Part shown: one piece after another, positions 19,950-58,473 of the stretch
Position numbering within the stretch: the first letter of the stretch is position 1
Layout: each line of letters opens with the position of its first letter
Assembly: GCF_003144195.1 (NCBI RefSeq)
Contig: NW_020290055.1
Span: 40,830-104,829 of the forward strand
Direction: 5' to 3'
DNA: 64,000 nt
DNA from: Ceraceosorus guamensis
Taxonomy: Eukaryota; Basidiomycota; Exobasidiomycetes; Ceraceosorales; Ceraceosoraceae
Position numbers and translations under genes: made by a program
Notes under the pieces: generated by a model
What the model saw: the letters and a program-made list of their open reading frames with translations, nothing else
What the model was told of the DNA's origin: nothing
Database searches by the model: none

Positions 19950-22900
19950 CTAGCCCCGATAAATGTGATCCGTGGGGAAAATCACCCCGTCATGTCTCAC
20001 GAGCGTGATAGGCGAAGGCCCGCGGAGAACTTCGCCGCCCACACTGACGTCGTGCGAGGGAGGAGGGGCGCAAAGCCAGGTAGTCGTGGACTGCCTTTCG
20101 ACTTGGTCACAGCGCCAGTCGCCAAAGTAGACGAAGAGGTTGTGACCAAAATTTTCACCAAAGAGCGTGATCCATTCGCTTCCACTAGTTGTGCGCGAGG
20201 CGGGGCTCGCGGTGTGTGCAAATTGTGTCCGTGTCCGCTGTGGGGCGGTGAAGTGGTGAAGCACGGGAATCGGTGTGATGGGCTCTCTCGGTGTTGGCAC
20301 TGTGATTAAATGAGCGACACTGCGATCCGCTTTCGGCGCCTTAGGTCTAATGCCGTCAACAATCCTAGGCGGGATGTAGAAAGTGTGTCGAGCGATGTCG
20401 GTGCCTACGATGGTCCAAATGTCAGTGTCCTTGACTTCGATGGACCACGTCGATCCGGCAGGAGGACCTCCGACAGAGGACTCTGTGGAACCAGCAGACG
20501 TCGCAAACGAGCTGGTTCGACGCAGATGTTCGCCTTTGCCAGGCGAGCTTGTGCCGGAGGCACTGCCAGTGCCCGACAGCTGCTGTATGTGATTGACTGT
20601 CGACATGGACTGGCCTCTGCGTCTGCTTTTGCTAGCGGCATTCTGCGCAGCGCGTTCCTTGTGTTGTATGACAGAGGAAGAGACTCGCCGCGGCCTACGA
20701 GCCTTTGAGGAGTCGGCGGCCGAGGATGTTGATGCCCCAGACTCCTGCGAGGCAGATCCCACGCCCTGAGACGCGACATTGGAGCTCATCGAAAGTCCAC
20801 TGCCAATCGATGGCTGGTGACGAGCTTGCGCTACGCTATGCCTGGTCTGTGCAGCTGCGTACGCCGCAGCCGTCGCAGCAGTGGGACTGGTTGGGGGCGT
20901 GCCGAGGAACTTCTTCGACTCGTCGAGCATCATGGCGTCGTGCTGAGGGAATGTCATTGGTGTGATTGGGGTCGTGGGAGCGGAAATACCGCCCACGTTC
21001 GGCACCCATCGACGAGGCTCATCAGGATTGCGCATGCCGACCTGATCATTGTTGCATGAGAGGAATGGACGGCTGTCTCCTGGCGGCCGAAGCTCTCCCG
21101 AGGGATGGCGAACGTTTGGGTCCGGAGCTGGGACTTTGAAGTTGTCAAGCACCTCCAACGCAATCTTGTGCAGCTGAGAGACAGGATCGCCGAGCGCTTC
21201 GCTGCAAGGATAGAAGCCCTCGGATCCGAACGTCCTGCTTCCACCCATCACTGTCGTACCCTTGTCCACCCTACGAATCACCATCACGGGGCTCACAACG
21301 CCAGTCTGCAGGCACTGCAGCACGACTGGCTGATTGTAATGGATCGGTCTAGGTGCTGCGCCGTACGCCGTGGCGGGATAAGCGCATTCGGGTGGCGTGG
21401 GAAAGCGGGCTGCCTCGGACTCTGGTGTGGCCTTGTGACTCAACGTCGATTTAGCTGGATCCACGAGATACACGATGAAGGCGTCCCAACTGGATATTTT
21501 TGCCATGAAGCAGGAAGGAGGCTCCGACGTGCTAGGCAAAGAAGTTTCTTGCGCAGCTGTAGTGAAGGTCTGGCCATCAGATCCCTTGAGCCACGTTGGA
21601 GCTCCAGACACGCAAAGATAACGCGTCGAGACCGTTTGACCTCGCAGGCGATGGAAAAGCGAGATTGTCGTGCCGTGATTGACACACACTGCGCAAAAGT
21701 TAAACTATTAGTTGACAGAATGGGACGGTGCTTGGCTACCGCATATCAGCGCCCGACTCACAGTCAGCATTTCTCGCGCTTTGGCGTTTCTTGCTTGGCT
21801 TGCTGATGACTTTGATCTGCTTGCTCGGAAAGTGTCCGAGGAGATGGTGCTCGTCTGGATTGCGACCGGGCATGCTAATCGTGACGTTTGCCTCGCAGTA
21901 TCGGCGTTTTTCATCGAGGTCGTTGATGAAGAGCTGCTTGGCGATGCATCTGCCAGAGATTGCTAACTCAGTGGAGCCATTCCCGCTGACGTCAATCAAG
22001 CGACCACTGTTTGCGGCCCATTCGAGTGATCCATCCTGAATCGAATGCTGTTCGCCACTAATGCTCACGACCACTCGTGGGGGAGCGACCCCCATGGCAT
22101 GTTCGGACATGGTTCCAGGACCGTCTACGAAAGTGGGAGTGGGTTTCTGCGCCGATGTCCACCAGCTGCTACCAATCAGCACGACCATGGGCGGAGGACA
22201 AAGAAAGCTGGAGGACGCAATCATTGCAGGGTTCAGCGGGAAAGCACGCCACCACGAGGCACCTTCACAGCACTAACCGCTTCTCGACGCCATAGCTTTT
22301 CTGTCCGACTTTGCTGGTCATCACCAGGACAGTGCGCTCGCCGAGACCGAGTCGACTTGAGCTTGACAGGTAATTGTCCATCGTGTCGCTGCAGACATGA
22401 TGCAAGATGGTAAGTGCACTGTGACTATTGTGGGCCCGAGGCATTGGCGCGGCTCAGAAGGCACTCACGAAATGAAGCTCAGGCAATCAGTCGGTTCGGC
22501 GTCGCCTGAAAGCGCGGGAGACATTGTCGGATTGCTCGCCATCCGCAGAAAGGACGCTTGCTGAAGCGTGCTTGGGTGAATGCCCGGACGGTACGCTCTC
22601 TTGAGCACCACTGCCGTTCTGGCTGGACCAATGCCCGAAAGACCACTATGACCGACAGGAAAGCCATCTGACCGCATGACTCCTAATCTGCCGCTGGCTG
22701 CCTGAACAGTCTGCGAAGGAACAAACGCAGAGCGCCTCGACCCACTGGGCGACGATGCAGCACCAGAAGCGCGCTGTGCGCGATTCGGCGACCCTTGATC
22801 GAAGCGCAATTGACCGCCACCGTGCCCGCCCTCACCAAAATAGAAGGACAGTGGCTGTTGGGACGCATGGTGAGCTACATTGGGATACGCCGCACTTTCA

Positions 22901-31553: not shown

Positions 31554-33431
31554 TCATTTCTCCATTCTCCATAAACGTAGGGCGGTGTCTTGCGTGAAGT
31601 AAGCAGCTTCACGCCCGTGCGCTTCCCGCTCCGACTCGGAAGAAACGGACGAATCAGAGGAGCTCCCTGAGTTGCTCGTGCTTAATCTCTCAGACGGACC
31701 GTGCTCCAGTGACTCCGGCTGAGACCAGTGTCTTGCACCTGAGGCTGTCACAATCAGGGGAAGCAAGGGGTGCGCGGAGACGGTAGCAACAGCATCTGGT
31801 GATTTTGTGATGGCGTGCATCAGCTAGGCTCGTCCTCGTCGTGGGCAAATTTGAATTCTCACCTGAACCAGTGCTCCAGCTCGCACTCGCCTGCCACGTG
31901 TATGAAAGGATTTTGGCAGAGTCACCAAAGCCTTCTGCCGCATCGCCATCAACAAGCTCGGTGTCGTGTCCCGGCTCCTTGGAGACCCTCCACGCGGAGA
32001 CCCGACCGTTGAGATCACCGGCCAGTAGCCAATGACCGCTCCAGTCCACATCGAAGAAGAGCCGCTGCATACTTTGCACTTGCGAGGATGAACCAGCAAG
32101 TCTGCGCGAGAACCCACCAAGGGAGGCAGCTCTGGGCGCGGTGGAGCTGAAATTAGGCCTGGAGCCCGTGTAGCGGAGGTCGTACGCTTGAATGCGATCT
32201 GTGCATCGGGAGCTGATGAAGAGAATGTAAGGAGCAGTGGGGTGAAATCGTAGCTTTAGAGTGGCAAGGCGGAGATTCGATATCCCGAAGAGTAAGCCAC
32301 AATGTCAGCCGTATCTGAGGTGCCGAAAATCCGCTTCAGCAGTACGCACCTGGGAGATGCCTCTGCTATCTGGCTCCCTCCAGCCCGCAAAGAGGCACTC
32401 CGAGGCCTCGGTGAGAGCACCGGGATGATATAGCCCAACGGTGCCAGCAAAGGTGCCCACGGCAAGAACTTGTTGGCCTTGACCGTCTGTCGTCCAATTC
32501 CAACCAATGGCGACGCAGCTCACGAGCCCTCTTTGACCCGGCTCTTGATGTTTGCGAAGGCGCCGTCCAGGAGTCAGGGGCATGGTGATAGGTGCCTGTC
32601 CCGATACGGAGACATCAAACACCGATAGACTGCTAGCATGACCTGCGTAAAGTCTTTCAGATTGGCAGCGAGAACAGAATGAGCTCTTCGGGGCGAGCAC
32701 ACTTCTAATTTTGCAAAGACTCACTGGGTGCCATCCAGACTAAAAGCCAGGCTTTGAGCGCCCACGAAGCGCTCGACGTGGTCCTGAATTGGGTATGCGG
32801 CTCGAGTCTGAAGGAAGAGCGTCGCCGCAGAGAATATGCAACCATTAGGCCAAGTAAATCCATGAGAACCTTTCCCCTACACCCGACTGGCAGACTCACG
32901 CGCCCGCTGTAAGCGTCAACGAGTCTGATCGGCACATCTCTGGCGCTGAATGCAAAGCACCAGGTAGCCGGATGGTCGAAGCTAGCAAAGGGGTACCATA
33001 CGACGTCGAGCAATGGCGAAGGTGCAGGCACTGTCAGCACGAAAATCAGACGATGCTCGTCGTCCTTCGTGTCAAGCTTATAAAGCTGAATCTCGTGGTT
33101 ATCGCATTGAGCCAGCACGTGAGTACCATCAGGAGCCCTAAGTGTCAATGGACGACATGTGAACGGACTTGAGCATGGCTCCGAAGCATTTGGCAGGCGT
33201 TTCGGGGCGGCAAAGCCTGTGGCCGGTACACCTTACATACCATCTCGTTTGCCGCCAGATCGCAGGTGCACCCGACACGTTTTCTCCAAGTGTCTTTGAC
33301 CTCCGTCTTGGAACGATTTCGCTTCTGATTTCTGCGCACAGGAACGGCTGTTTGAGATTCACAAAGATCCGCGAAGGCGAGGCGAAGGTCGCTGGATAGG
33401 TTTCCATGTCACCCTCCGCTTGCTCGTCCAT
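31554..33431 (-). CDS. WRAP53/TCAB1-like WD40 protein (telomerase and scaRNP Cajal-body factor family)
   Basis: Six exons join in phase to 482 residues: 33241-33431, 32900-33137, 32725-32807, 32350-32653, 31863-32253 and 31554-31795. Conserved blocks follow the family in order: TRWAPDGTHVLAQCDNHEI, WCFAFSARDVPIRLVDAYSG, QDHVERFVGAQSLAFSLDGT, QLYAGHASSLSVFDVSVSG, GLVSCVAIGWNW, ISQLRFHPTAPYILFISSR, IQAYDLRY, RLFFDVDWSGHWLLAGDLNG, and near the end TVSAHPLLPLIVTASGARHW. The human protein binds CAB boxes in H/ACA scaRNAs and telomerase RNA and directs them to Cajal bodies; yeast Swt21 is a distant relative. Here it is probably a nuclear RNP-binding WD40 propeller. A Ser/Glu-rich insertion sits just before the last blade. 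It shares a 615 bp divergent promoter with the dynein gene. Confidence 0.92.
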
Positions 33432-34046
33432 GTTGCCGTTTCCTGCTTTGCGCTCAATCCATGTTTAACGCGCCGATCTTTCCTTGAGATCCCACTTCCT
33501 CGGGCTCGCTCCATGGATCTTCGAGTGACACTCGGCTTTGCGTCGTTGACAGTCCTTCCAGAGGTGCAGAGATTGAAGGTGGCCTTCTCTGCTGCCACGA
33601 GCGTGGAATGAGTCAGAACGAGATGGCATCGCACTCTAGACTCAGACTCGATCTGGATGGTGACTGCAGCAGAGAGTCGTGAGTCATTCACGTGATCGGC
33701 TTTGCGCCTCGCTTTCCACGCAGCGTGACTGCCAGATTCAACAGCACACGCACTCACGAATTCACGACGCGCATGCACACCTAGCTGCAGCGCGCGCACA
33801 TGCGTCCGCTACTTCCTCGGATGAGCGTGCACGCTCCTCCGCGCATTTGCGTGTTGGTCTCACTCACCACCAGCACCCGGTGACTCTTGACTCGAAGGCG
33901 TTCTGCGGCCAGTCGAGCAACGTCCTCACTACGGCTGCGGACAACCTCAAAGAAGCGTCTTAGCAGCCGCCCGTGAGCTGCTGAACGGTTCGTCCAGCTA
34001 GAAATCCGAAAGACGCTGACGACAAGCTCCACTCAGCGCTTTCAAC
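33432..34046. promoter_or_regulatory. Divergent promoter between the WRAP53-like gene (-) and the dynein gene (+)
   Basis: 615 bp between start codons. An in-frame TGA at 34017-34019 lies upstream of the dynein ATG at 34047, which supports this ATG as the genuine start. No TATA box is evident. GACTC/GAGTC-type words recur (AGACTCAGACTCGATC near 33645; ACTCACGAATTCACGACG near 33755), as in other intergenic parts of this window. Confidence 0.6.
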
Positions 34047-37000
34047 ATGCCGGTCCCCGAAAAGATCGCTGGTGACTGGGCGCCTGCCGCCTATCGGACA
34101 GTCGCGGAGGAGCTCACATCCACCATCGATCTTGGCGGCTCAGCATCTGAGATTATCGACTCGCTCGTGCACATTCACTACTCTGTATATGCGGCCGCCG
34201 AGAGGCTGAAGAAGCGTCAGGGTCGGAGGCTGTGGATGGGACCAAGGAGCTTCTTAGACTTCATTCATCACTGTGAGTCCAGCCGCCGCATGCCTGAAGC
34301 CAGGTAGGTATTGCACAATGTAGCTGAGCATACCTGATGATCGTTGTCACAACCCTCAGATGTCTCGCTCACAAACGAGAAGCGTTCTGCGCTCGAAGAA
34401 GAGCAACGACACCTCAATGTTGGTCTTGACAAGCTCAAAGAGACTGTGAGTAAAGAAGACGAGGCCTGCTTCACATTCGTGAGCTCATATGATACTCTTC
34501 TTGGTGCTCGCTCGCAGGTCTGGGCTGTGGAGGAGCTAAGGAAGTCGCTCGCTGTCAAGGACACGCAGCTGAAGGCAAAGAATAAGGAGGCTAATGACAA
34601 GCTGCAGCGAATGGTAGCAGATCAGAAGCAAGCTGAGGACAGGAAAGTGGAGTCGGAGCGAATGCAAAAGGAGCTCGTCCGACAGCAGGAGGGTATCGTG
34701 GTGCGGCGTGAAGAAGTCGAGGCCGAGCTGGCCAATGCCGAACCCGCAGTGCAAGACGCAAAGGCCGCTGTCAGCAACATCAAGAAACAGCACCTGACAG
34801 AAGTTCGTTCGATGGGAAATCCGCCTGCACCGGTCAAGAATGCGATGGAGAGCGTCTGCATCGCTCTGGGTCACAAAGTAGACAGCTGGAAGACTGTGCA
34901 AGGTATCATTCGCCGAGACGACTTCATTGCGTCCATCGTCAACTTCGACACGGAGAGGCAGATGAACAAGGCTGTGCGCGACAAGATGCGTCGCGACTAC
35001 CTCTCAAAGCCAGACTACAATTTCGAGCAGATCAACCGCGCTTCCAAGGCTTGTGGCCCACTAGCGAAGTGGGTCATTGCGCAGGTGGAGTACTCGGACA
35101 TTTTGGACAAGGTCGGTCCGCTGAGAGAGGAAGTCAATGCGCTCAGTGAAGAGGCAGAAAGATCACAAGCAGCAGCTGCAGCGACATTGGACATTATTGC
35201 CCAAACGGAACGGGACATCGCGCGCTACAAAGAGGAGTACGCCGCATTGATCAGCGAGGTGCAGGCCATCAAGAGCGAGATGGAAAGAGTGCAGACGCGT
35301 GTCAACAGGAGTATTCAACTACTCGACAGTCTCGGATCCGAAAAGCAGAGGTGGGACAGCGCAAGCAAGACCTTTGACACCCAAATGAGCACCATCGTTG
35401 GCGACGCTCTTCTCTGTGCTGCATTTCTGACGTATGCTGGATACTTTGACCAACAATACCGCGAAGGTCTGTGGACAGGCTGGGTGGATCACCTCACTGG
35501 AGCAGAAGTCAAATTCAAGTCGGGATTGAGCTTCACGGAATACCTGTCTACAGCTGATGAGCGCTTGGATTGGCAATCGAAAGGCCTGCCATCCGACGCA
35601 CTTGCTACTGAAAACGCCATTATGCTACAACGCTTCAGGCGCTACCCTCTTCTTCTGGATCCTTCTGGTCAGGCGACCGCCTTCTTGCAAAAGTGGTACC
35701 AGGATCGAAAGCTCACAGTCTCCTCATTCCTGGACGAAGCATTCGTCAAGAACCTCGAATCTGCGCTGCGTTTCGGCCAGCCTATGCTCGTCCAAGACGT
35801 CGAGAATTTGGACCCCATCGTCAATCCAGTCCTGAACGGCGAGCTCAGACGCACTGGTGGCAGAGTGTTGATCCGGGTCGGCACCCAAGAAATCGACTTT
35901 AGCCCCTCTTTCACGATGTTTTTGTCTACGCGCGATCCATCAGTGGAGTTCACGCCGGATGTTTGCTCGCGGGTCACCTTTGTCAACTTCACAATGACTC
36001 GCGAGTCCCTCCAAAGTCAAAGTCAAGATCAAGTGCTCAAGGCCGAACGACCCGACACGGACAAGAAGCGCACGGACCTGATGAAGCTGCAAGGAGAATT
36101 CCAGCTTCGCCTGCGCCATTTGGAGAAGAGCCTTCTAAACGCGCTCAATGCTAGTGAAGGCAACATTTTAGATGATGACAAGGTGATCGATACCCTCGAA
36201 ACTTTGAAGAAAGAGGCTCGCGAGGTCACCACAAAGGTAGAAGAAACGGAAGCTATCATGCAAGATGTAGACGCCGTCACTCGACAGTACGAACCACTTG
36301 CCAAGGCATGCTCTTCCCTTTTCTTCGTGCTCGACCAGCTCAACCTCGTCAATCACTTTTACCAGTTCTCACTCCGATTTTTTCTGGATATCTTTGACTT
36401 TGTGCTGCGCCGCAACCCTCATCTTCAGGGTGTCTCAGAACCCTCGGAGAGGCTTCGGATTCTAACCCGCGACCTCTTCTTGGTGGTGTACAAGCGCACC
36501 AGTCGAGCTCTTGCACATCGAGACCACGTCATGCTTGGAGCTCTCTTGGCACAAATTTGGAGTCGCGAAGGGTCGGAGCCTGAGGCGCTCGACTCTGAGG
36601 AGTACGACTTCCTGCTCGAGGGCGGAGATGTAGTTGGTCAACCTCCTGCCTCGACAGGAGGCATCTTGGATCAAATCTTCTCTCCAGAGCAACGCCAGCG
36701 AGTCGAAGCTTACAAGCGGCTACCTGTATTTCGCGGCTTGACAAATCACGCGGAGCAGCATTCGGACGAGTGGCGAGAATTCCTAGCGTCTGCAACTCCA
36801 GAGACCGCTGTGCCACGCTTCTGGCCAGAGACAACAGGTGCGTGAGCTGTCGACTGGTATGATTTCACAGAGGCGAATGCATCGTTGACGCAAGTCTACC
36901 ACAGATCTCGCGGACCTCGTGAGGCGCATCTTGGTTGTCAAATGTCTGCGGTCGGACAGAATCGTGCAAGCGATGACGACACTTGTCAACACAGTGTTCG

Positions 37001-39129
37001 GTGCAGACATACTTGCCGACACGGCTTATGATCTGAAGAGCATCGTATCCGATGAAGTAGGTGCTCAAACTCCAATCGCGCTGTGCTCCGTGCCTGGCTT
37101 CGACGCCAGCTACCGAGTTGATCAGCTGGTGCGATCAACAGGTGTGAAGTGCATCAGCGTTGCTATGGGATCCGCCGAAGGTTTCGCACAAGCTGATCAA
37201 GCCATTTCAAACGGTGTGAGGACCGGCCAGTGGGTTCTTCTGAAGAACGTGCACTTGGCGCCAGAATGGCTCTCTCAGCTTGAGAAGAAGCTTTCGACCA
37301 CCACACCGAATCGCAATTTCCGACTATTTCTTACTTGCGAGACTGTACCATCAATCCCTGTCAACTTCTTGCGAGCCTCGCGGATCCTCATGAACGAGCC
37401 GCCTCCCGGTATCAAGGCGAGCATGCTGGACAGTCTTCGAGGCATCGCTCCAAGCCGTCTGCAAAAGGGACCTGCAGAATCGATGCGGCTGTTCTTCTTG
37501 CTATCCTTCCTGCATGCCACTCTGACCGAGCGTCTGCGCTACACGCCTCTCGGTTGGTCGAAGACGTTCGAGTTCAATGACTCTGATGCTGAGACAGCAC
37601 TGGACACCATAGATGCATGGGTTGGAAGGGTTGCCAAAGGTCGCGCCAACATTGATCCAGCAAGCATTCCTTGGGACGCACTGCGGTCACTGATCAAGAC
37701 CACCGTGTATGGCGGCAAGATCGACAACGAAACAGATCAGCTGCTTCTCGACACTTTTGTCAATGCTATTTTCACCCCTGCAGCGTACGAGTCCGCCTTT
37801 CCTCTAGTCGACAATGAGCAAATGCCGCTCATTGCTCCAGAGGGAACGCAAATGGACCAGTTCATTGCGTGGGTGCAAAAGCTGCCCGAACAGCAGCCTC
37901 CCCAGTGGCTCTCGCTTCCGCCAACTGCAGAGCGAGTCATCGCGACAGCGCAAGGTGCTGCCCTGCTCAACAAGCTCGTGCGTATGCGTGAGCTCGCGGA
38001 CGATGACGACGTGGCCCCAACTGCGGCGACTACTGCGCCGCATGAGGGCACGGCGTCCTCTAGCGCTCACGCCCAGCCAGTGTGGATGAAGACCCTACAA
38101 CAAAACGCCATCGAATGGCTGAAAGTTTTGCCTGGGGATATTTCGAAGCTGACGGGCACCTCTTCGAGCATTGCGGACCCTCTGTTCCGGTGAGGCTGCG
38201 CCAGATAGATAGTAGACGACTCGTTTGCGCCCAACGCTAATTTTGTTGATCTGCCCTCGCTCCTGGCTCCAGTTTTTGGGCCCGCGAGCACCGGACTGGT
38301 GCGTCGTTGCTAAAGACAGTACGTTCAGATCTCGAGGAAGTCGTGTCCGTTTGTGCCGGAGAGACGCGGCAGAACAATCACAACCGAAATTTGCTGAACG
38401 ACTTGCCCAAAGGTGCGTCACGTCAGCCAGCGCGTCGATTTGCTCTCCTACCACGCTCACACCGATCGCGGTGATTTTTCTCAGGTGTGATACCAGCATC
38501 GTGGAAGCAGTACGCGACACCCAAAGCAATGTCTTTGGGTCTTTGGATCGCCGACCTCACACAACGTCTTGCCCAGCTGGAAAGCGTCACCAAAGAGAAT
38601 CGGTACGACCGCTTTGCCGTCGTGCTGGGTCTACTCTTCTCGCCGGGCGCGTACTTGACCGCTACGAGACAAGCTGTCGCTCATACGACACGCGTCAGTC
38701 TGGAAAACCTCAAGCTTGATCTGCGCGTCAATGATGGGGGTCGCACAGAGAATGGCTTCGCGATTGAAGGTACGCAAATGACCACGTTCACGCCCCTTAT
38801 ATTCTGTCTCTGACACTGAAATCATGCTTTATGGGCGCGCCCAATCAGGTCTCAAACTGGAAGGAGCAGACTGGCTAGAAACCTTTCTCGACGTCAACGA
38901 TGGGCGCACAGTCAGCTTGTCGCGCAGCAGCATTCTCTGGCTCGACGGAGCTGCTGACGGCGCGGACCCGACGGATACGCCGTCATCTGCGCCTGCGCGG
39001 CACGTTCCAATCACCGTCTACCTGAACGGCGACCGCGACAACACGTTGTTTCATGTCAAGCTACCAGCAGCTCAAAGCTTGCCCGTGGCCACGGTCGCTC
39101 AGAGGGCTGTCGCAGTCCGAGCAGCTTGA
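34047..39129 (+). CDS. dyn2: Cytoplasmic dynein heavy chain, C-terminal polypeptide of a split motor (Dyn2-like)
   Basis: Seven exons join in phase to 1540 residues: 34047-34272, 34360-34445, 34518-36837, 36905-38189, 38273-38412, 38485-38769 and 38849-39129. The protein starts at the end of AAA4 (HIHYSVYAAAERLKKRQGRR). It continues through stalk coiled coil CC1 (EEEQRHLNVGLDKLKETVW), the microtubule-binding domain (LTEVRSMGNPPAPV, YLSKPDYNFEQINRASKACG), CC2, AAA5 (TENAIMLQRF, NLESALRFGQPMLVQDVENL), AAA6 (LKNVHLAPEWLSQLEKKL, ERLRYTPLGWSKTFEFND) and the C-terminal domain (ASWKQYATPKAMSLGLWIAD). Full dynein heavy chains exceed 4000 residues. This one lacks the tail and AAA1 to most of AAA4. An in-frame stop lies 30 bp upstream of the ATG. 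In U. maydis the heavy chain is encoded by dyn1 and dyn2, whose products assemble into one minus-end motor; this matches dyn2. Intron 2 (72 nt) is open in frame. Confidence 0.96.
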
Positions 39130-39313: not shown

Positions 39314-42300
39314 TTACTCCCTGCTGGGAGCAAGCGGAGAGCGCCTCGAAATCGAAGTTCGAGGCACTTCGACGGTGGGAGTCGATCTTGCGGGCTGGGA
39401 AAAAGGGCGTGCGGACGAGGCAGGGGGTTTGTATACGATTTCGTCATCGCTTTGCTCAGTGTCGACGGTAAGTTCGTCTTCATCCTCCGACTCTTCCTCA
39501 TCTTGCAGGACTATTTTGCGTCGAGCATGGGCGCTTCTGGACGTTCCTGCAAAGCTCGCCGGCACAGACCTAGTCGAACGGCGAATCGGCTCGGAAGTCT
39601 TGGAAGACGAAGAGGAATCGGACTGCTCCTCCGATCCTTGCGCCGTCGAAGGGGAATCGAAGCGATCGATGCGCAGCCTGGTGCGCGAAGAGGGTCTCGT
39701 CTTTCGTTGCAACTCTGTATTCGCCTCCGAAAGAGCGCTGCTCGACGATGGCGATCCACCCCTCTTTGGTCTTGCGACAATCCTACGCAGAGACATACGC
39801 GCGATTCTGCCATCTTGAGCTGACCTGCTCACACTCGGGCCCACCGACAATGCGCGAGGTGCTAGTGGTACAGGTGGCCTGGCTGGAGTAGGTACAGCCG
39901 ACTCGTCCTCGTTTCGAAGCGTGATTCTCTGCCTTTTGCGTATCCTTGGCGGCTCATCTTCGGAATCTCTGAAAGACGAGAGGCTGGTGCTAGCAGTCGT
40001 AGTATGGGAATCTTTGCGTTCAAGTTCAACGGCGCCCTCGGTATTGTCGGAGCGTGCCTGGGCCCCGTTCTCTTCGCGGCCCTTCAATGCCATCAATTGC
40101 GCTTCCAGGGCAGCGAGCCTGCTTGCCGCACTCGACATTGAAGCCTGGCCAACCGCTGCGTGCCTCTTTCCATCGTCTTGCACGCGACGTGCGCTCGCTT
40201 CGATCTTAGCGTCGAGCGCCGCCTGCGCCGCCTGAAGTTTCGCCTCGTACGATGTCATGCGTTCTTCGAGTGCCTGCTCTCGCACTGCCACCTTCTCCTC
40301 GCGCTGTGCCAGAGATTTTTCAGCCACTACGAGCTCCTCGTTCTTCTTGTCCACCATCGCTTGCCATTGTCTTTCCTTCTCCTCCAGCTTCGCGCGAGCC
40401 GCCTCGTCTCGAGCTTGCCCATCTTGCACAAGCTTTTGCAGCGCCGTTGCGATTGAACGCAAGTTCGCTTCCGCTGGGCCCGACGACCCGTTCTGTCCTC
40501 GATCGACAACATTGCCAAGCTTGGCATCTATCTGCACGTGCTGATGTTCCAAAGCCGTGATGCGTTGCTGCAAATGGACTGCAGAGGCCGCAGGCAGAAG
40601 TTGGGGAAGCTGCTTCTCCACCTTATCTAAGCGCTCTCGAAAGCCGCTGTCCATCTTTCGAATGTCCACGGACAGACCATCACGCACCGCCTCAAGGGTC
40701 TTGCGTTGCGCCTCTAGACGCATCTCGACATTTTCGCCTCTCGCGTGATTGTTCGGAGTGGTTGCCTGCTGCACACCGTGCGGGGAGCCGCCCGAGGACT
40801 GGGCTTTCATGGAGTTTGTAACGTATTCTCGTAAGCTGTGTAGCGCCGCGTTCTGCTGCTCCTGTGTAGTCCCGAGACGATGGATTTGGTGAGCGTGATT
40901 TTGCAGTCCAAATCTATGTTCCCCGCCCTCCACATCCAGCTGGTTCACCGCTCTTTGCAGGCCTACCAGCCTCCCAACCCCGGAGGTAGCCCGAATCAAC
41001 CTTTCACGCGTCTCTTCATCAGCATTCCTCCGTATCCTGCTCGAGGCTGTCTTGCTGGCTGCAGCGGCTGTCTCCGCAGTGAATTGCGCAGTATAGCGTG
41101 AAGTCCACCGTGCAGGCGCGGCCGGGGGACTAGCCCAGGATGGGTTCGCACTCTCACGTACAGCAGTGGTGCTTGACGCCGGTGGCGCTGGAGTCGCATT
41201 GGGCTGAATTGTAGCTGCAGGTCGCGTGAATTGGACCGGCGAGACAGCTTGAGCAGTCTGAGGTTGCGATGCGGCCTGAGACTGGTTCGCAGCCTGACTC
41301 TGCGTGCTGCTGGGCGGAGCAAAGGGTCCCTGCGGAGGACGCTGCTGCGCCCGTTGCTGTTCGTGCAGCTTTTGTTGATGCTGCTGATGCTGCTGTTGCT
41401 GGTATCTCTGTGGACTCGCCAGTTGTTGTTGGTGCTGCAGAAGTTGCTGATGCTGCTGCTGTTGAAGCGACTGCTGAGCAGGAGTGTGCAGCGCGCGCTG
41501 CCACTGTTCAAGCCCAGCAATCGACAGTGGATGCTGCAAATATGGATTGGTCGACACCAAAGCAGGTGCAGGGATCGCTTGAAGCAATTGAGCCGCGGAA
41601 GGGGAATGCTGACTCCTGGCATGATAATTCGTAGGTGATCGGCTTTGATGAGCCGGTCCATGCGGTTGCTGTGCGGGTGCTGATTGTTGCACGTGGGTCG
41701 AGCCCGAAGCAGCGCCATAAGGTGGCCTGGCTTGCACTGGCGACTGTGGATTCTGTGTCTGCACAAACGAAGAAATGACCGGCGCGGCAGAGGTGCGAAT
41801 GGGCCCGGAATTGGTCTGCAGTGGCTGAGAATGCGGAACCGACTGGGAGACGAGACTTTGCTGACGCTGTTGTAGAGGCGACACTCTGCCTCCCTGCTGA
41901 ATGCGTCGTTGACTCTCGCGATCCACCATCATATCAATGAGCGCGCGAACAATACGCTGGAGCGTTTGATGCAGCGAGCCAGGTGTTTTGGAAGAGAGCG
42001 TGTTGATGATGCTCAGCACGCGCAAGCACGACGCATATTTGAGCGACAAGACTGTGCTGAATGTGGGAGGTGCCAGGAGCGCGTCGGCAACACCTACACC
42101 TTTTTGCTGAGCGAGGATCAACGACTGCTTGATGACTTTTAGGTGCTGATCGATCTCCACTCCGCTCGAAGCAGTGTTGCTGAAGTGATTGGGTGCAAAG
42201 GATGCCTTCGCCTTGGCCGCTGCGAACAGCTCGTAGTTGGGATCGCGACGCGGGTCGGGTGGGGGAGTGTCGAGCTCTGTCAGATCGATGACTGTGAGGT

Positions 42301-42625
42301 CCGCAACTGTCTCGTCTGACGAGGATGGTGTCCGTGCTTTGGGTAGTGATGGGCCTGCTTCTGAGATTTCACCTGCACTTGCGTCACCCGAGGTGGCTTG
42401 TTGAGAGCTTACCTCAGCATTCTCCAGCTCCTGTCGAGACACCTCTCTTTGGGCGCTTTCCGGCCTGGCGCCCTCCGCGTCGCGTTCTAGATGACTGGTT
42501 TCCCGTTCCACAGTCTCTGAATTTGGTTGCTCAGCAATCAAAGAGACAAATGTACTCGTAGCGCTAGCTGTGTTCGCATTTCCATGTGCTGTTGAGTCTT
42601 GATGGAGCCGCGGCAGGGAGTTCAT
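39314..42625 (-). CDS. Orphan 1103-residue protein with SUMO-interacting-type motif, Q-rich region and coiled coil
   Basis: A single uninterrupted frame runs from ATG at 42623-42625 to the stop at 39314. The frame stays open upstream to about 42826, so an upstream exon is possible. I recognise no family. Visible parts in order: an acidic N-terminus with VADLTVIDLTELD at about 107-119, which fits SUMO-interacting motifs (hydrophobic core next to acidic residues); a possible helical domain at about 133-240 (VLSLKYASCLRVLSIINTL); a long Gln/Pro/Ser-rich region at about 245-475; a helical segment with RLDKVEKQLPQLL; a heptad-rich charged coiled coil at about 675-865 (EKERQWQAMVDKKNEELVVA); then a Ser/Arg-rich acidic-basic tail. 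Composition suggests a nuclear scaffold or regulator. Its stop lies 184 bp from the dynein stop (convergent). Confidence 0.8.
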   Translation of the reverse strand: MNSLPRLHQDSTAHGNANTASATSTFVSLIAEQPNSETVERETSHLERDAEGARPESAQREVSRQELENAEVSSQQATSGDASAGEISEAGPSLPKARTPSSSDETVADLTVIDLTELDTPPPDPRRDPNYELFAAAKAKASFAPNHFSNTASSGVEIDQHLKVIKQSLILAQQKGVGVADALLAPPTFSTVLSLKYASCLRVLSIINTLSSKTPGSLHQTLQRIVRALIDMMVDRESQRRIQQGGRVSPLQQRQQSLVSQSVPHSQPLQTNSGPIRTSAAPVISSFVQTQNPQSPVQARPPYGAASGSTHVQQSAPAQQPHGPAHQSRSPTNYHARSQHSPSAAQLLQAIPAPALVSTNPYLQHPLSIAGLEQWQRALHTPAQQSLQQQQHQQLLQHQQQLASPQRYQQQQHQQHQQKLHEQQRAQQRPPQGPFAPPSSTQSQAANQSQAASQPQTAQAVSPVQFTRPAATIQPNATPAPPASSTTAVRESANPSWASPPAAPARWTSRYTAQFTAETAAAASKTASSRIRRNADEETRERLIRATSGVGRLVGLQRAVNQLDVEGGEHRFGLQNHAHQIHRLGTTQEQQNAALHSLREYVTNSMKAQSSGGSPHGVQQATTPNNHARGENVEMRLEAQRKTLEAVRDGLSVDIRKMDSGFRERLDKVEKQLPQLLPAASAVHLQQRITALEHQHVQIDAKLGNVVDRGQNGSSGPAEANLRSIATALQKLVQDGQARDEAARAKLEEKERQWQAMVDKKNEELVVAEKSLAQREEKVAVREQALEERMTSYEAKLQAAQAALDAKIEASARRVQDDGKRHAAVGQASMSSAASRLAALEAQLMALKGREENGAQARSDNTEGAVELERKDSHTTTASTSLSSFRDSEDEPPRIRKRQRITLRNEDESAVPTPARPPVPLAPRALSVGPSVSRSAQDGRIARMSLRRIVARPKRGGSPSSSSALSEANTELQRKTRPSSRTRLRIDRFDSPSTAQGSEEQSDSSSSSKTSEPIRRSTRSVPASFAGTSRSAHARRKIVLQDEEESEDEDELTVDTEQSDDEIVYKPPASSARPFSQPARSTPTVEVPRTSISRRSPLAPSRE

Positions 42626-44169
42626 GTCAGAATGGTGTGATCGATCTCGATTCAACTCGACCGAGTGAACAAGAGCCCACCTTCGCTTTCTTGGCCTGCA
42701 ATCATGCCACTCGTGCGACGTAGAAAGGGCAGTGCGCGGCTTTCTGAAATTAATGGGAGGCGTTTGTTCGGCGGGGGCGCCGCCCCAGCGAGGCAAACCT
42801 TTTTGACAGTCCTGGTCTAGAGCCACATTGGTGTGCTTTTCCGTGAGATCGCGTCAGGATGAGATGATCGTGGAGGACGCATTCACGCGATTCCACTGAA
42901 GCGTGGCGTCGAAGGGGAGAGGTCGACAGAACGTGCAGGAAGGTCAGGCGAGTTGTGGGACGGCAAAGGTCCTGATCCGAAGGATGCGAATGGGAGCGAT
43001 GGTCACGCCAGTCTTGGATTTCTGTGGTTGATCAATCAATCGTCTGTCATCAGGAACGGCCATCAGCAGCTGATCGTCGCTGTAAAGGCCTACCTACACA
43101 CATACATTCACTCGTGACTCACAACTTTGCCAGACTCAGCACGCCCCGCCATGCATAAATCAAGAATCTGGCGCAACCGCGAATTAAGGGCGCGCGCGCG
43201 GTCGAGTCGCGACGCGTTTGAGTGCCGCATTTCAAAATTCTGATTAGTGAACAGGCTCGGTGGTATCTAAACTTCTCTCTCTATCTAGCATTCAATTTCT
43301 TGATCAAAAATCCAAGTTTTGTCCCTCAAACCGACTTATTGCTGGCCTTCTTCGATTTGTATCATCAGAAATCCTCGATCAGACCCAACACTTTTGAAAT
43401 CAAGAATAGGAGCTTGCGCTCCAGGACTGAATCTTCGTGTAGTACACTACAATTTTCAACATTCAAATCCACGAATTCTTGATTTCAACAAGGTGTATAC
43501 CTAGACTCTTGACTTGACTTGATTCGACGTTCGGTCACGTGTCACAGCCGCCATGTGCGTCACTCTGCAGAGTTCTCTCTATCATAAAGGCAGCAGCAGG
43601 CGCAGAGAGGCGAGTCACCGAGCTTGTTCCAGGCCGCGTGTGCTTAATCGTGAATCTGTGTCAAAAAAACATACACTCGACTCATCAGCACGAGTCGCGT
43701 GCGCGCGTACGTGAAGCGAAATTTGGCCGAAATCGATGCGCACGACAGACATATTATAGCGCTGCCGCATCACGAGGTGAGCTTGGTGTGGGGCCGGCCG
43801 CTTTGTGCTTTTTTTGGCCTTCTGGGTCTACGCAGTCACGAGTCATCTCGAGAACTCTGATGAGCTCGACAACCATCAGCACCGTACGCTTGTGACTCAT
43901 CCAATTCTTGATTCCGACATTCCCTTGGCGACCTCACACACAGCACGATCACCATCTTGTCAGGACAGCAGCAGTTGTTGACCTTCATCACCATCTCGAC
44001 AGACCCTTCAGCTTGCACAGCACAATCACTCTCCCCGAGTATCTTCGCCTCGCTCCTCGTCCCACCTTGCCTGTTTGCGACTAGACAGCAAAGCTCTCGC
44101 ATCGCCCATCAAAGCACCTCTCACGCTCGAGGGAGATTGCAGCTGCATAGAGATAGAGTCGCGGCAACA
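42626..44169. other. 1.5 kb divergent intergenic region with an AT-rich island
   Basis: This separates the start of the orphan coiled-coil gene (-) from the PQ-loop gene (+) and should contain both promoters. A clearly AT-richer patch lies at about 43225-43500, with repeated TTGATTT/AAATCAAG-like words (TTTCTTGATC, TTGAAATCAAG, AATTCTTGATTTC). No gene is visible. Confidence 0.55.
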
Positions 44170-51429: not shown

Positions 51430-54400
51430 ATGGCTCGAGGCGGTGGAGGTGGCGGCGGAACTTTTGGGCTTGTCTCCAACACTCGCCTCTCCGGACGAGG
51501 TCGGGGCACATTCAGAAAGCGAGGTGGCAGGGCGGGCGGCGGACCTCGCGACGAAGCACAGGCAGCAGCATCCGCATCCCTAACCAAGGGAGCCTTCGAC
51601 GATGCTACGGCATCCGAAGATAGATTCGAAGAAGCAGCAGCGCACGATGATCTGGATGCCAAGCTGGGATTCGAACGGGTAGAAGCTGGGCCTTCGAGGC
51701 AAGCTTGGCTCGTCAATATGCACCCCACGATCATGAGGGACACGGATGATGGTGGACACGCTAGCGGAAAGTCTGCCGTCGATTTCTATTTTATCGATGA
51801 TGATGCCAGCAGCTTCAAGGTCACTGTGCAGTACCAACCTTACCTTCTCGTGGGCTGTAGACCAGGCACAGAGGCGCACGTCGAGGAGTGGATGCTTCGC
51901 AAGTTCGAGGGACTCGTCGTTGCTTGTGCGCGAGAGCGCAAAGAAGACCTCAAGCTGCCCAACCATCTCGTCGGACACAAGAGGACGTACGTCAAGCTGA
52001 CCTTTCACAACGTCCACGATCTCCTCACAGTTCGGAGAGATCTGCTACCAATGGCTCAGCGCGCACAAAAGCGTCGAGACGCTGTCGACACGTACGCAGA
52101 CGTCTTGGCAGATAGCGCTGTGGCGCAAATGGAGGTGGAAGTGGAGGACGTCGAGGCTGCTTACTTGAACGACGACGATACTTGGAAGGGAAACAAGCTC
52201 AAAGGCACCTTCGGCAAGCAGAATCAGGACCCGGAAGAGTGCATCGTGGATCTGCGGGAGTACGATGTGCCTTATTACCTTCGCGTAGCCATCGATAATG
52301 GTAAGTCAAGCTTTGCGTCGTTTTGCCTCGAGAATGGTGAGCTGAGCATGCCGACTCTCACCTTCAAATGCAGACATTCGCGTCGGTATGTGGTACGACG
52401 TCAGCTTTCACGAAGGCGCAGTGACGATCAACTCGGTGCCAGCTCGGGTGAAGCGTGCCGAGCCCGTAGTGCTTGCGTTCGATATCGAGACTACGAAGCA
52501 GCCGCTCAAGTTCCCAGTAGCAGAGACGGACTGCGTCATGATGATCTCGTACATGATAGACGGCCAGGGTTTTCTCATTACCAATCGAGAGATTGTCAGC
52601 GAAGATATCAGCAATTTTGAGTACTCGCCGAAGAAGGAGTATGAAGGTCCATTCGTAATCTACAACGAACCCAACGAACTCGCCCTGCTCCAACGCTTCT
52701 TTGCGCACTTTCAAGAAGCGAAGCCGCGCGTCGTCGCGACGTACAATGGTGATTCTTTCGACTTTCCATTCTTGGACGCCAGAGCCAAGTATCACGGGTT
52801 GAGCTTGTTGCACGAGATAGGCTTTGCCCTTGACAGCGAAAACGAATACAAGAGCAGGTCTTGTGCGCACATGGACTGCTTTCGATGGGTCAAGAGAGAC
52901 TCATACCTTCCACAAGGAAGTCAAGGCCTCAAGGCCGTCACTGTAGCAAAGCTAGGTTACGACCCCATGGAGCTTGATCCAGAACTGATGACACCTTACG
53001 CCATCGAGCAACCGCAAACCTTGGCGCAGTACTCGGTCTCGGATGCTGTAGCGACCTACTACCTCTATATGAAGTATGTGCACCCTTTCGTCTTCAGTCT
53101 TTGCAACATCATTCCACTCAATCCCGACGAAGTCCTGAGAAAGGGCAGTGGCACGCTTTGCGAGACTTTGCTGATGGTCGAAGCTTTCAGGGGAAATATC
53201 GTCATGCCAAACCGACATACGGACCCCGTCGGCAACACATATGAAGGTCACCTGTTGGAATCAGAGACGTACGTGGGTGGCCATGTAGAAGCACTGGAAG
53301 CAGGTGTCTTCAGAAGCGACATTGCGACCGACTTCAAGCTCGATCCTTCTGCTTTGCAGCAAGTGAGTTGCTCTGAAGCAAACATTAGCGATGCCGTGCG
53401 CTTACTTTATCCTTCATGCAGCTCATCGACGATCTCGACGCGGCGCTGCAGTTCAGCATTCGCGTCGAGGGCAAGATGGACGTCGAGGATGTCACCAATT
53501 ATGACGAAGTCAAGGCCGAGATTCAGCAAAAGCTAGAGGTCATGCGAGACACGCCGGTAGTCTGTGTGGAGCCCCTGATCTACCACTTGGATGTCGCAGC
53601 CATGTATCCCAACATCATGCTGTCCAATCGGCTGCAGCCTGACTCGGTCGTAGACGAAGCTACTTGCGCTACCTGTGACTACAACAGACCCGGCATGACC
53701 TGCGACAAGAAGATGGAGTGGGCTTGGCGTGGAGAATACTTTCCACCAAAGCGCGACGAGGTCAACATGATTCGGTCTGCCTTGACCAGCGAAATGTTTC
53801 CTGGCAGACACAAGACTAGTCCCAAGCGGACGTACTACGACTTGTCACCCTCTGAGCAATCTGCACTGTTGCACAAACGTCTGGGTGACTACAGCAGAAA
53901 AGTCTACAGGAAGACGCACGAGACCAAAACCATCGTGCGGACATCGACTATTTGCCAGCGAGAAAATCCCTTTTACATCGACACCGTCAGAGCCTTCCGG
54001 GATCGGCGTTATGAGTACAAAGGTCTGCACAAGACTTGGAAGAAGAACCTGGACACGCGGCAGACAGGAACTGGAGACGACGCAAACCCGGCGGGCGTTG
54101 CAGAAGCACGAAAGATGATCGTGCTTTACGACTCGATGCAATTGGCTCACAAGTGTATCCTCAATTCCTTCTACGGCTACGTCATGCGAAAGGGAGCACG
54201 GTGGTACTCGATGGAGATGGCAGGCATCACGTGCCTCACAGGTGCCAAGATTATTCAGATGGCCAAAGAGCTCGTGGACCGGATCGGACGACCTCTCGAG
54301 CTGGACACGGATGGTATCTGGTGCATGCTGCCCGGCCTTTTCCCCGAGAATTTCGCCTTCAAGACGCGGAGCGGCAAAAAGCTAGGCATCTCGTACCCGT

Positions 54401-57400
54401 GCACTATGCTGAACTGCCTCACGCACGAACGCTTCACGAATCATCAATATCACACGCTGACCGATCCTGCCTCGGGACGGTACGAAGTGCACAGCGAGAA
54501 CTCGATCTTTTTCGAACTGGACGGACCCTATCGCGCAATGATATTGCCGAGTAGTAAGGAGGAAGATAAGCTGCTAAAGAAGCGGTATGCTGTGTTCGAG
54601 CATGATGGTAGTCTAGCGGAGCTCAAAGGCTTCGAGGTCAAACGAAGAGGAGAGCTCCAACTCATCAAGGATTTTCAAACGCAGATCTTCAAACAATTTC
54701 TCCTCGGCAGCACGTTGCAGGAATGCTATGCTGCGGTCGCGTCAGTTGCGGATCAGTGGCTCGACATTCTATTCTCGAAGGGTGCAACACTCTACGACGA
54801 GGAGCTAATTGACCTCATTGCCGAGAATAAGAGCATGTCTCGAACCCTTGCTGAGTATGGAGATCAAAAGTCTACCGCAATCACAACGGCCAAGCGCCTG
54901 GCGGAGTTCTTGGGCGCCCAGATGGTCAAGGACAAAGGCTTGGCCTGTAAATTTATCGTCTCTGCGAAACCTTTTGGCGCGCCTGTCACGGAGCGCGCGG
55001 TACCAGTGGCAATCTTCAATGCGGAGCCCGCCATCAAGCAGTATTACCTGCGCAGATTTCTGAGGGACCCGTCCCTGACTGACTTCGACCTTCGAAGCGT
55101 ACTGGATTGGGACTACTACATCGAGCGTTTCGGAGGAGTGATACAGAAGCTGATCACCATTCCGGCAGCTATGCAAAAGGTGCCGAATCCCGTCCCTCGG
55201 ATCCGCCATCCCGACTGGCTGTTCAAGCGAGTCACCGCAAGTGAGGACAAGTTCAAGCAGCGCAAGCTCACGGATGCCTTCCAAGTGCAACACGACAGGA
55301 GTTTGTCAATGAAACCATCTACGAGCGCTCTGCCATTGGCGAAGCCTGCCCTCAAGAATCAGAAAGTGGCTTCAGTGGTCGAGGTGGACGAGCTTGTCCC
55401 TGACCTTACGGTCGACTATCGTGGCTGGGTCCGCGTCATGAAGAAGAAATGGGCAAAGGAACGCAAAGCACGAGCTCAGCAGCAGGGCGCGCTCGGCGGT
55501 GCTGCACGAGGCAGAGGACTGGGGACGATGGACGCGATGCTCGCACGGAGATCTCAGACTCTGGCCACTGCTACATGGGATGTGGTGCAGATCAGTGGCG
55601 CATCAAATCCCGGCGAGTTCCGGCTATGGATTTCTGTGGCAGGTCAGCTGCAGAGCCTCAAGCTCCATGTGCCCCGCCAATTCTACATCAACTTCAAGAA
55701 ACCACCAAGACCTGAAACCTTTGGCACCGGCTACCTGTACGAGCGCGTGTCTCGCACGCTGCCTCGTGGTAGGCAGTGCTTGGAGCTGTACCGCATCACC
55801 GTCTCAGAGACAATGTACCTCGAGGAAGAGACGCACTTCTCATCGCTGCTCAATCACCCGAACGTGGATGGCGTCTTCGAAATGCAGGTGCCGCTTTCAG
55901 TCAGAGCTCACATCAATCTTGGCGGCTCTTGCGCGATCGATTCGAGGACTCCTGTGCCCATCGATCGCGTGCTCGATGCGGGTATATCTCTCCACGAATT
56001 GTCCAAGGCTGAGCGCCCTTCCGGCGCTCTGAGACGGCGAAAGTATCTCGACGGCGGAAGAGGACTCCGCTACTTTTGGCTCTACCATGCGCAGAAAGAC
56101 ACAAGACATTTCATCGGCCTTGTCTCGCCCGAAGGGCAGGCTCGCGTCCACGTTGTCGACACAGCCGGGCTGCAGCAGCTTCCGCGCCTCGAGCCAATGT
56201 ACGCCCAGCGAATCGCCAAATTCCGCGAAACTGACAAGGTAGTCGATGGAGAAGGCGTCTTTGACTATGCAGACGCATTGAGCATCGAGACTCGGGTCCA
56301 CACGACGCCGGAACGCGCCTTCCGTGCCGTTGCGAGGGAGCTCAGCACGATGCGAACGGCAAAGCAGGGTGGCGCTGTGCTGGTGATCAATTCGTCACGA
56401 CCCCAGGCTTACTACGAGCAAGCTCTGGGCGGGGCCGCGTCAGACTTTCCCATTATGGCCGCTCCGTCCTCACGAGCCGAAGACGACTTCCCGGCTCTCA
56501 ATTGGCAAATCGCGAGCGCGAGGAGGATGTTTGGCTGCTACCTGCGCCTATCATTGTGGCTGCAGCGGTGGCTGCAGCAGGCTGAACACTTCGACCTGCC
56601 ATTCTGCAACATCGAGCGCGACTTTGTGCTTGCCGGAGCAGACATCGACTTTGCACGCCGGTTGTTGGCGCAGGACATGGTGCTCTGGTGGTCGAGCACG
56701 CCGTCACCAGACCTTGGAGGGCGCGAAGAAGATGCTCACGCCGCTCAACGCTCTATCAAAGGAGACGAGGAGGGTTTGCTGGAGATTTCTCGCCCAGGGC
56801 TGTACTCTCGAGTCGTTCTGGAAATCGCCATGCGCGACTTGGCGATGGACGCTGTGCTGCAATCGGGCTCCGTCAATGACATGGAAGGGACTGCCGCAGG
56901 GTCAATGGCCTTCGACACGTCTTCGCACAATCTTGACGAGTATGCAAAAGGCACTGTGCACTCGGAGACTTCACTCGGTGATGCCGTATTGACATCGCAA
57001 GTCTTTACTACCGTCAAAGCAATGGTCAAGGCGTGGTTCATCGACAAGGTGCACGGAAAAGCTGCTTACTCGGGACGACTCGCTGACAATTTCTGGAGAT
57101 GGGTGTCCACCCCGGAGAGCGCACTCTTCGAGCCTGCACTCAAGGCCTTCCTGCAGGGACTAATGCGCAAAACACTCCTCCAGCTGCTGGCAGAATTCAA
57201 GCGACTCGGAGCATCAATTGTCTTCGCTTCACCCAGTCGGTTGTTCCTCTTGACGTCTAAGCCCACGGGTGGAAGCGCCGCGGCGTACGGCCGCTACTTG
57301 CTGTCTGCGGTGGCAAGCAGAGACCTCTTCAAACATTTGCAATTGGCCATCACCAATCACTGGGAGCTACTTTTGTGGATGGATGAAGCCAATTTTGGCG

Positions 57401-58473
57401 GTGTAGTCTCACCGGATCCAAATGCAATTGAGCCCAGTCAGACTTGGGAGACTGACATGAACTGGAACGTCCAGGAATTCTTGCCTCGCGCCCTTCGTCA
57501 GCGCTTCGCTGCAGTCATCGGCGCCTTCCTGTTCCACTTGTACGAGAACAAGCGCCGCAACATGATTGCGTTCGAGCGGACGCCACTGCGGGTGATTCAG
57601 CAAGCGACGACGCCGCTTGCCGGCACGCAGAGAGACCACCAAGTGGATGAATCCGCTGTGCAGAATGAAAGTGCGGACATGGCAGACCCGAACAAGGCCC
57701 TCGTCGATCCTCTCAAAACGGCGGAGATCAAAGCGGCCAAGGACTACGTCAATCACAAGCTTACTCGCCAATTGTTACGGGTGGTCGCTGAGGTTCGCCA
57801 CGAATATCAAGCTGCCCAAGCAGCGGGAGCAGAGGACGAAGAGGCATACTTTGAGGCAACCGAGCATTGGTCCTTTCCTGACCTTCCTGGCCGGCTCGTG
57901 CAAGCGACGGGCGACCTTTCGCCTGCGTTGGAGTTCGTCAAGACCACGATGGCAGTCTTGGGCCTTGCGAAAGACTTGAACGTCGAAGTCGGCATTTGCC
58001 GTCGCAACCTGCTCGAGTTGCTCGGCGTCCGAGAATTCGCAGCGGTGGCAGAGTGGCGAAACCCGTGCGAATCGTTCAAGTTACCGATGGTCATCTGCTC
58101 TTTCTGCAACGATGAGCGGACGCTGGATTTGACGCGGGATGCGGATCTGATGCCGGCACGACCTGGAGAAGCTCGAGAGTGGCAATGCGCCTGCTGCAAA
58201 TTTGCCTACGACCGATCAGCGATCGAAGCGCGCCTCGTATCCATTGCGCAGTCGCTGTTGTTGACGTTTGCGCTGCAAGATTTGCGCTGCAACAAGTGTG
58301 GAGGAGTCAGAGCCAACAACATGGCGCCACACTGCTCTTGCTCTGGATCCTGGGGACTGACTGTGTCCAGGAAAGATACCATGAGACGCTTGACGCTTAT
58401 ACGCAGTCTTGCTCGCTATCATGCCTTGCATGTCCTTGAGAGCGCCGTGGAGCCCCTCCTAGCCAACACCTAG
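51430..58473 (+). CDS. POL2: DNA polymerase epsilon catalytic subunit A
   Basis: Three exons join in phase to 2303 residues: 51430-52300, 52374-53362 and 53422-58473, close to the yeast (2222) and human (2286) lengths. The proofreading exonuclease is intact: Exo I FDIETTK at about 326-332, Exo [13 protein letters not shown] near 413-423, Exo [16 protein letters not shown] near 510-522. Polymerase motif A is [10 protein letters not shown] (about 677-686), motif [11 protein letters not shown], and motif C ELDTDG (about 913-918), the DTD form characteristic of Pol epsilon. Cysteines at about 702, 705 and 714 ([13 protein letters not shown]) plus STICQREN fit the Fe-S cluster of the catalytic domain. 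The inactive second polymerase-exonuclease half follows. The C-terminus ends with CysA and CysB zinc modules ([32 protein letters not shown]). The enzyme is the leading-strand replicase. A glycine- and arginine-rich N-terminus ([18 protein letters not shown]) is typical. Confidence 0.98.

Follow-up and report, generated by a model that had tools for sequence, protein, structure and literature searches.

The stretch analyzed here, 64,000 nucleotides from the fungus Ceraceosorus guamensis (contig NW_020290055.1, positions 40,830 to 104,829 of the forward strand; hereafter the window), carries on its plus strand a complete seven-exon gene (34047-39129) whose 1540-residue product corresponds to the C-terminal third of the cytoplasmic dynein-1 heavy chain. 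Judged from the sequence of this gene and of the rest of the assembly, it is very probably dyn2, which shares the coding of one heavy chain with a second gene; the products of the two would meet in one ring. The other half, Dyn1, is found on a different contig and stops within the fourth AAA module (AAA4), and in alignments to known dyneins the two products abut.

Dyn2 begins with the ATG at 34047 and ends with a TGA at 39127-39129. Its gene model has a single open frame of 1540 codons and six introns of 67-87 bp, all six bounded by GT and AG. An initial annotation of the window had described a complete gene whose ATG lies behind an in-frame stop at 34017 and which covers the stalk, the microtubule-binding domain, AAA5, AAA6 and the C-terminal domain; we found both the upstream TGA and the uninterrupted frame, and the Pfam and PDB matches agree with this domain content. 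In the unspliced frames, Pfam recognized the MT stalk (PF12777, 7.1e-41), AAA_9 (PF12781, 3.3e-76), Dynein_heavy (PF03028, 5.2e-28), AAA_lid_11 (PF18198, 2.4e-34) and Dynein_C (PF18199, 6.6e-18), while two of the five open pieces scanned, those at the ends (34047-34304 and 38824-39126), matched no Pfam family. The best PDB match of spliced Dyn2 was the cytoplasmic dynein 1 heavy chain 5nug_A (4646 residues), over its residues 3141-4642 and with 1560 bits. We take 5nug_A to be the human chain, and the species given below for the other human, Dictyostelium and yeast PDB chains are likewise our assumption.

A Dyn1-like gene ending in AAA4, for which the initial annotation had proposed to search the rest of the assembly, is present on the minus strand of contig C81 (28872-18492) and extends over DHC_N1 and AAA1-AAA3 before it reaches its stop in AAA4. 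Its 12-exon model encodes 3198 residues with one terminal stop, and all 11 introns (62-84 bp) are GT-AG; one intron of 84 bp, which fits the conserved sequence, took the place of a 21-bp intron in the model. Seven of the nine open pieces scanned matched dynein families (DHC_N1, DHC_N2, AAA1, the AAA2 and AAA3 modules with their lids, and AAA4), and the AAA4 match covers positions 3-179 of the 259 in PF12780. Against PDB, the first 553 residues align to dynein 1, starting at residue 142-143 of the latter, and the exon that encodes AAA2-AAA4 has cytoplasmic dynein 1 as its best match (~1080 bits). Taken together, Dyn1 and Dyn2 comprise a tail, a linker, six AAA modules, a stalk and a C-terminal domain, and are nearest to cytoplasmic dynein 1 in both Pfam and PDB. 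The N-terminal two-thirds of the heavy chain is, as first proposed, not adjacent to the window gene: Dyn1 lies on C81 and Dyn2 on C60, and the two would be at least ~43 kb apart even if these contigs were neighbors. The Dyn1 model also includes a 14-bp micro-exon (C81:22278-22265, minus strand), which forms part of the AAA1 P-loop and has introns of 70 and 67 bp on its two sides.

The location of the halves on different contigs could also reflect an assembly artefact, in which an intact heavy-chain gene was broken. We consider this very improbable. Both breaks are internal to their contigs, with ~18 kb of sequence past the Dyn1 stop and ~75 kb ahead of the Dyn2 start; Dyn1 has a terminal stop of its own, and the Dyn2 ATG stands behind a stop and a divergent neighbor. 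Furthermore, the flanks hold no convincing leftover of AAA4 (see below), and AAA4 is also the module that is split in published Ustilaginomycotina (PMC4540427).

To cover further heavy-chain loci, the whole assembly (23.8 Mb, 199 contigs) was searched with profiles of five dynein families (PF03028, PF12774, PF12777, PF12780 and PF12781). PF12774 (AAA1) and PF12780 (AAA4) were found on the minus strand of C81, and PF12777, PF12781 and PF03028 in the window gene alone. Four of the families gave one match each; PF12774 gave three adjacent matches, all within Dyn1. In a control of 14 genomes these four families had no matches, and PF12774 matched in 3 genomes, never above its cut-off. No third dynein heavy-chain locus was found outside Dyn1 and Dyn2 among the best candidates scored for the five families in this assembly, nor did the full-length heavy-chain gene that the initial annotation had considered appear in this search. 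We thus have strong, though not absolute, evidence that no full-length copy exists: only the best candidates were scored, and the assembly may be incomplete. An assembly in 199 contigs, possibly with gaps, might still hide a full-length gene of which the window gene would be a decayed partial copy, but we regard this as extremely improbable: the Dyn2 frame is open across all seven exons, the five families point to no other locus, and Dyn1 terminates in AAA4, at the residue that pairs with the Dyn2 start.

The position of the cut was placed by alignment. The C-terminus of Dyn1 reads ...SPALFNRAVLIFL followed by the stop (last stretch ALFNRAVLIFL), and its match ends at residue 3091 of 5nug_A with three residues left over, which puts the last Dyn1 residue at human residue 3094. 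Dyn2 residue 9 corresponds to human residue 3095 (residue 1777 of 8dyu_A, with the numbering shifted as in the main match). Dyn2 residues 9-30, which are GDWAPAAYRTVAEELTSTIDL plus one residue, align to a 21-residue dynein 1 stretch plus one in 8dyu_A, and axonemal dyneins align continuously from Dyn2 residue ~9-13 in a register identical to that of this match. Among the matches listed, Dyn1 and Dyn2 abut with zero residues lost or repeated in all 28 comparable PDB chains, with an ungapped extrapolation over the 3 to 7 residues at the Dyn1 C-terminus. Chains entered this set when the Dyn1 match ended at 788-792 and the Dyn2 match began at 9-13, and close homologues are among them; the four PDB comparisons behind it each list at most 60 of their 89, 95, 96 and 70 matches. 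It leaves aside chains whose Dyn2 match begins no earlier than residue 34-65 (human dynein 1 at full length, yeast, dynein-2 and a part of the axonemal chains), two chains whose Dyn2 row is unlisted (9y6s_6k and 9e5c_6a), and chains for which the best stretch in the list was in another place.

Carried over to yeast numbering through 9mfv_A, with an extrapolation of three residues, the end of Dyn1 falls at 2917, and the published limits of yeast AAA4 are 2735-2916 for the large and 2917-3355 for the small subdomain (PMC4047620, Table 1). The cut is within one residue of this published boundary and, by this comparison, therefore lies within the fourth AAA module at the joint of its large and small subdomains. 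In the first reading of the window, the gene starts at the end of AAA4; this needs correction, as the start is at the subdomain boundary. The same reading counted 20 extra N-terminal residues, and this number does not stand, since GDWAPAAYRTVAEELTSTIDL aligns with dynein 1: MPVPEKIA (8 residues) is the only stretch of Dyn2 without a counterpart.

The exact complementarity of the two proteins would also be compatible with trans-splicing that joins the Dyn1 and Dyn2 transcripts into one heavy-chain messenger RNA. Such joining seems highly unlikely to us: the terminal exon of Dyn1 is open to its stop through 2353 bp, and inspection by eye found no good donor before the Dyn1 stop together with an acceptor before GDW that would preserve frame and residues. 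In addition, Dyn1 and Dyn2 of Ustilago maydis are treated as separate proteins of one complex (PMC4540427).

Four local DNA alignments of the flanks, each compared with 500 mononucleotide shuffles, revealed no convincing AAA4 leftover beyond either gene end. The score of the Dyn1 tail against the Dyn2 leader was reached by 129 of 500 shuffles (162 of 500 with 30 coding bases added), that of the 300 bases past the Dyn1 stop against Dyn2 exon 1 by 459 of 500, and that of the 1000 bases past the Dyn1 stop against the 600 before the Dyn2 ATG by 25 of 500. The last of these is a 28-column match between positions ~490 past the Dyn1 stop and ~500 before the Dyn2 ATG; as one among four comparisons, it was not counted as a remnant. 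An in-frame APLSAFN before the Dyn2 ATG resembles SPALFN at the end of Dyn1 by eye and was taken as chance. Complementary halves without overlap, and flanks in which AAA4 left no convincing trace, would be explained better by a single clean break or rearrangement, of an age that let the flanks turn over, than by a duplication with overlapping remains, although this is not proof. We infer that the split was inherited from the known Ustilaginomycotina event. Two viral or prokaryotic contig collections (3 and 17 pattern matches) contained no dynein relatives for a comparison of break points.

In the two-gene arrangement that we favor, Dyn1 would contribute everything from the tail and linker through AAA1-AAA3 to the end of the AAA4 large subdomain; the AAA4 small subdomain with the microtubule-binding domain and stalk, AAA5 and AAA6, and the C-terminal domain would come from Dyn2. 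The two chains would be made separately, each folding into a block that complements the other, and would form one AAA ring with no covalent bond between them. Because the cut is the joint between the large and small subdomains of AAA4, each chain would keep its units of a small and the next large subdomain whole, and the tightly packing pairs would remain intact: AAA3 small with AAA4 large in Dyn1, and AAA4 small with AAA5 large in Dyn2. The break would in this way be placed at a natural hinge of the ring. It has been proposed that the interfaces between a small and the neighboring large subdomain are rigid, and that movement occurs mostly between a small subdomain and its own large subdomain (PMC4047620). 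Each large subdomain is described as tightly associated with its neighbor's small subdomain, and in the adenosine diphosphate state the AAA1 and AAA4 sites are suggested to open, dividing the ring into AAA2-AAA4 and AAA5-AAA6 plus AAA1 blocks (PMC4879348). In U. maydis, Dyn1 and Dyn2 are found in one complex in vivo and deletion of either gene is lethal (PMC4540427). Furthermore, U. maydis Dyn2 carrying green fluorescent protein at its C-terminus was called functional and displayed minus-end-directed movement (PMC5415202); split motors of the AAA4 kind therefore do move. We infer that the C. guamensis Dyn1 and Dyn2 co-assemble and function as a motor.

Several observations weigh against this interpretation. 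At the N-terminal end of Dyn1, the first two of the nine pieces scanned have no Pfam match and the first ~195 residues no significant PDB match, and the exon borders of both genes follow splice consensus and homology instead of transcripts. At the junction, the match of GDWAPAAYRTVAEELTSTIDL taken alone, at -2.9 to 0.7 bits, does not reach significance, as is the case for the five cytoplasmic chains among the 28, and in three further chains outside that set (9fqr_D0, 8j07_k9 and 8j07_k8) the Dyn1 match stops at 773, 22 residues short, so that ungapped extrapolation by hand gives one residue missing. A possible separate (moonlighting) role for one of the products has also been suggested (PMC4540427). 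Finally, a lysine-to-arginine change in the AAA4 P-loop could mean that this module is not fully functional.

This change is found in the AAA4 Walker A motif of Dyn1, GSSGSGRT, where arginine replaces lysine at residue 3048 (CGA at C81:18947-18945, minus strand), whereas the P-loops of AAA1-AAA3 are canonical (GPAGTGKT, GPSGTGKS and GPPGSGKT). The AAA4 motif is GVSGAGKT in the human chain and GVSGSGKT in Schizophyllum commune (PMC4540427). In Dyn2, a loop of the AAA4 small subdomain (residues 31-33) has 3 residues against 24 in human, making it ~21 residues shorter, and is ~26 residues shorter than in Dictyostelium. The altered Walker A motif and the shortened loop raise the possibility that AAA4 has lost its role in gating by adenosine triphosphate (ATP) and serves only as the joint of two chains. 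This would refine the two-gene reading and does not exclude it, and we hold it to be rather unlikely. AAA4 retains the Walker B stretch IIDES, its arginine may still allow nucleotide binding, axonemal dyneins are likewise short at this loop (91 Dyn2 residues against 93 in 8glv_Fm), and the evidence comes from one genome. Loss of AAA4 may moreover be costly, because blocking its ATP binding stops the yeast motor; in Dictyostelium gliding reportedly proceeds at ~40% of wild type (PMC7683685). A conversion of AAA4 into a nucleotide-independent mechanical joint of two chains, in place of its former part as a regulatory module gated by ATP, is, on the sequence at hand, slightly less likely again.

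Split dynein heavy chains have been previously reported in Basidiomycota, where three independent events are known: Ustilaginomycotina have a conserved cut within AAA4, Wallemiomycetes one between AAA1 and AAA2, and Agaricomycetes and Dacrymycetes one ahead of the ring (PMC4540427). The published AAA4 split is in line with the initial statement that U. maydis dyn1 and dyn2 are cut near this point. In that species, according to the published description, the heavy chain is likewise encoded by two genes and cut in the fourth AAA module (PMC4540427). S. commune dhc1/dhc2, of the Agaricomycete and Dacrymycete type, also has two genes per heavy chain, but its cut lies before the AAA ring near residue 1180, whereas the RYDLEQHSIESSSTAQTVTFITFV stretch is continuous here in one Dyn1 open frame. 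The Wallemiomycete cut is inside the ring, as here, but falls between AAA1 and AAA2 after 1979 residues (PMC4540427 for both types), whereas in C. guamensis the end of AAA_6 (AAA1) and the P-loop of AAA_5 (AAA2) share one 306-residue frame. Unsplit cytoplasmic dynein-1, as seen in the human, Dictyostelium and yeast PDB chains, has the same domains in the same order as Dyn1 plus Dyn2, but in one chain, with a Walker A lysine in AAA4 (human) and a longer loop in the AAA4 small subdomain. By the position of its cut, the present gene is of the Ustilaginomycotina AAA4 type and neither of the Agaricomycete nor of the Wallemiomycete type; it adds a case, placed to the residue, to a split already published for this group. 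U. maydis Dyn1 and Dyn2 were reportedly studied by Straube et al. (2001, EMBO J 20:5091; as cited in PMC4540427). A literature search, with subscription papers mostly outside it, found no residue-level description of the AAA4 cut, which Straube et al. may well contain, and no report of the AAA4 lysine-to-arginine change. The available parts of PMC3583065 and PMC7779554 hold nothing on a heavy-chain split, and Dyn2 in PMC7779554 denotes dynamin.

The features of the window gene and its divergent neighbor are collected in Table 1.

Table 1. Parts of the Dyn2 gene and neighboring features, in window positions.
Feature	Position	Strand	Content	Basis
In-frame TGA upstream of Dyn2 ATG	34017-34019	+		
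Dyn2 exon 1	34047..34272	+	8 extra residues MPVPEKIA, then first part of AAA4 small subdomain from GDW	
Dyn2 exon 2	34360..34445	+	leads into what is presumably stalk CC1	gene model and alignment
Dyn2 exon 3	34518..36837	+	stalk, microtubule-binding domain (PF12777), AAA5 (PF12781)	Pfam, alignment
Dyn2 exon 4	36905..38189	+	AAA6 / D6 (PF03028) and AAA lid 11 (PF18198)	Pfam
Dyn2 exon 5	38273..38412	+	C-terminal region begins	gene model
Dyn2 exon 6	38485..38769	+	Dynein_C (PF18199)	Pfam
Dyn2 exon 7	38849..39129	+	end of C-terminal domain and stop codon	match reaches 4642/4646 of 5nug_A
Divergent neighbor, tentatively WRAP53/TCAB1-like	31690..33431	-	no motor part	limits approximate, by eye

The initial annotation had named a WRAP53-like gene upstream of Dyn2. 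A divergent gene is indeed present, but its likeness to WRAP53 is weak: the best PDB match is Telomerase Cajal body protein 1 (E = 0.001), and none of its three minus-strand pieces matched Pfam. Just downstream of Dyn2, a convergent glutamine-rich open frame of 1170 residues (39314-42826, minus strand) has no Pfam or NCBIfam match. A domain scan of the other window frames, covering 9 of 15 listed open frames, found DUF1744, POL2 thumb and DPOE zinc-finger domains at 53416-58473 (plus strand), which look like much of the catalytic subunit of DNA polymerase epsilon. Beta-trefoil DNA-binding and TIG_SUH domains at 19950-21689 (minus strand) give that frame the appearance of a factor of the CSL/Suppressor-of-Hairless type, and an RRP7-like ribosomal RNA processing protein is encoded at 61813-63147 (minus strand).

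A motor ring closed from two chains would be a natural test of which joints within dynein have to be covalent, and a cut exactly at the AAA4 hinge agrees with structural models of a ring whose moving blocks each consist of one small and the next large subdomain. The AAA4 P-loop change, seen in one genome, offers a way to test whether the split and the role of AAA4 are connected: if the module has indeed given up gating, the cut may have been tolerated because of that loss, or may have led to it.

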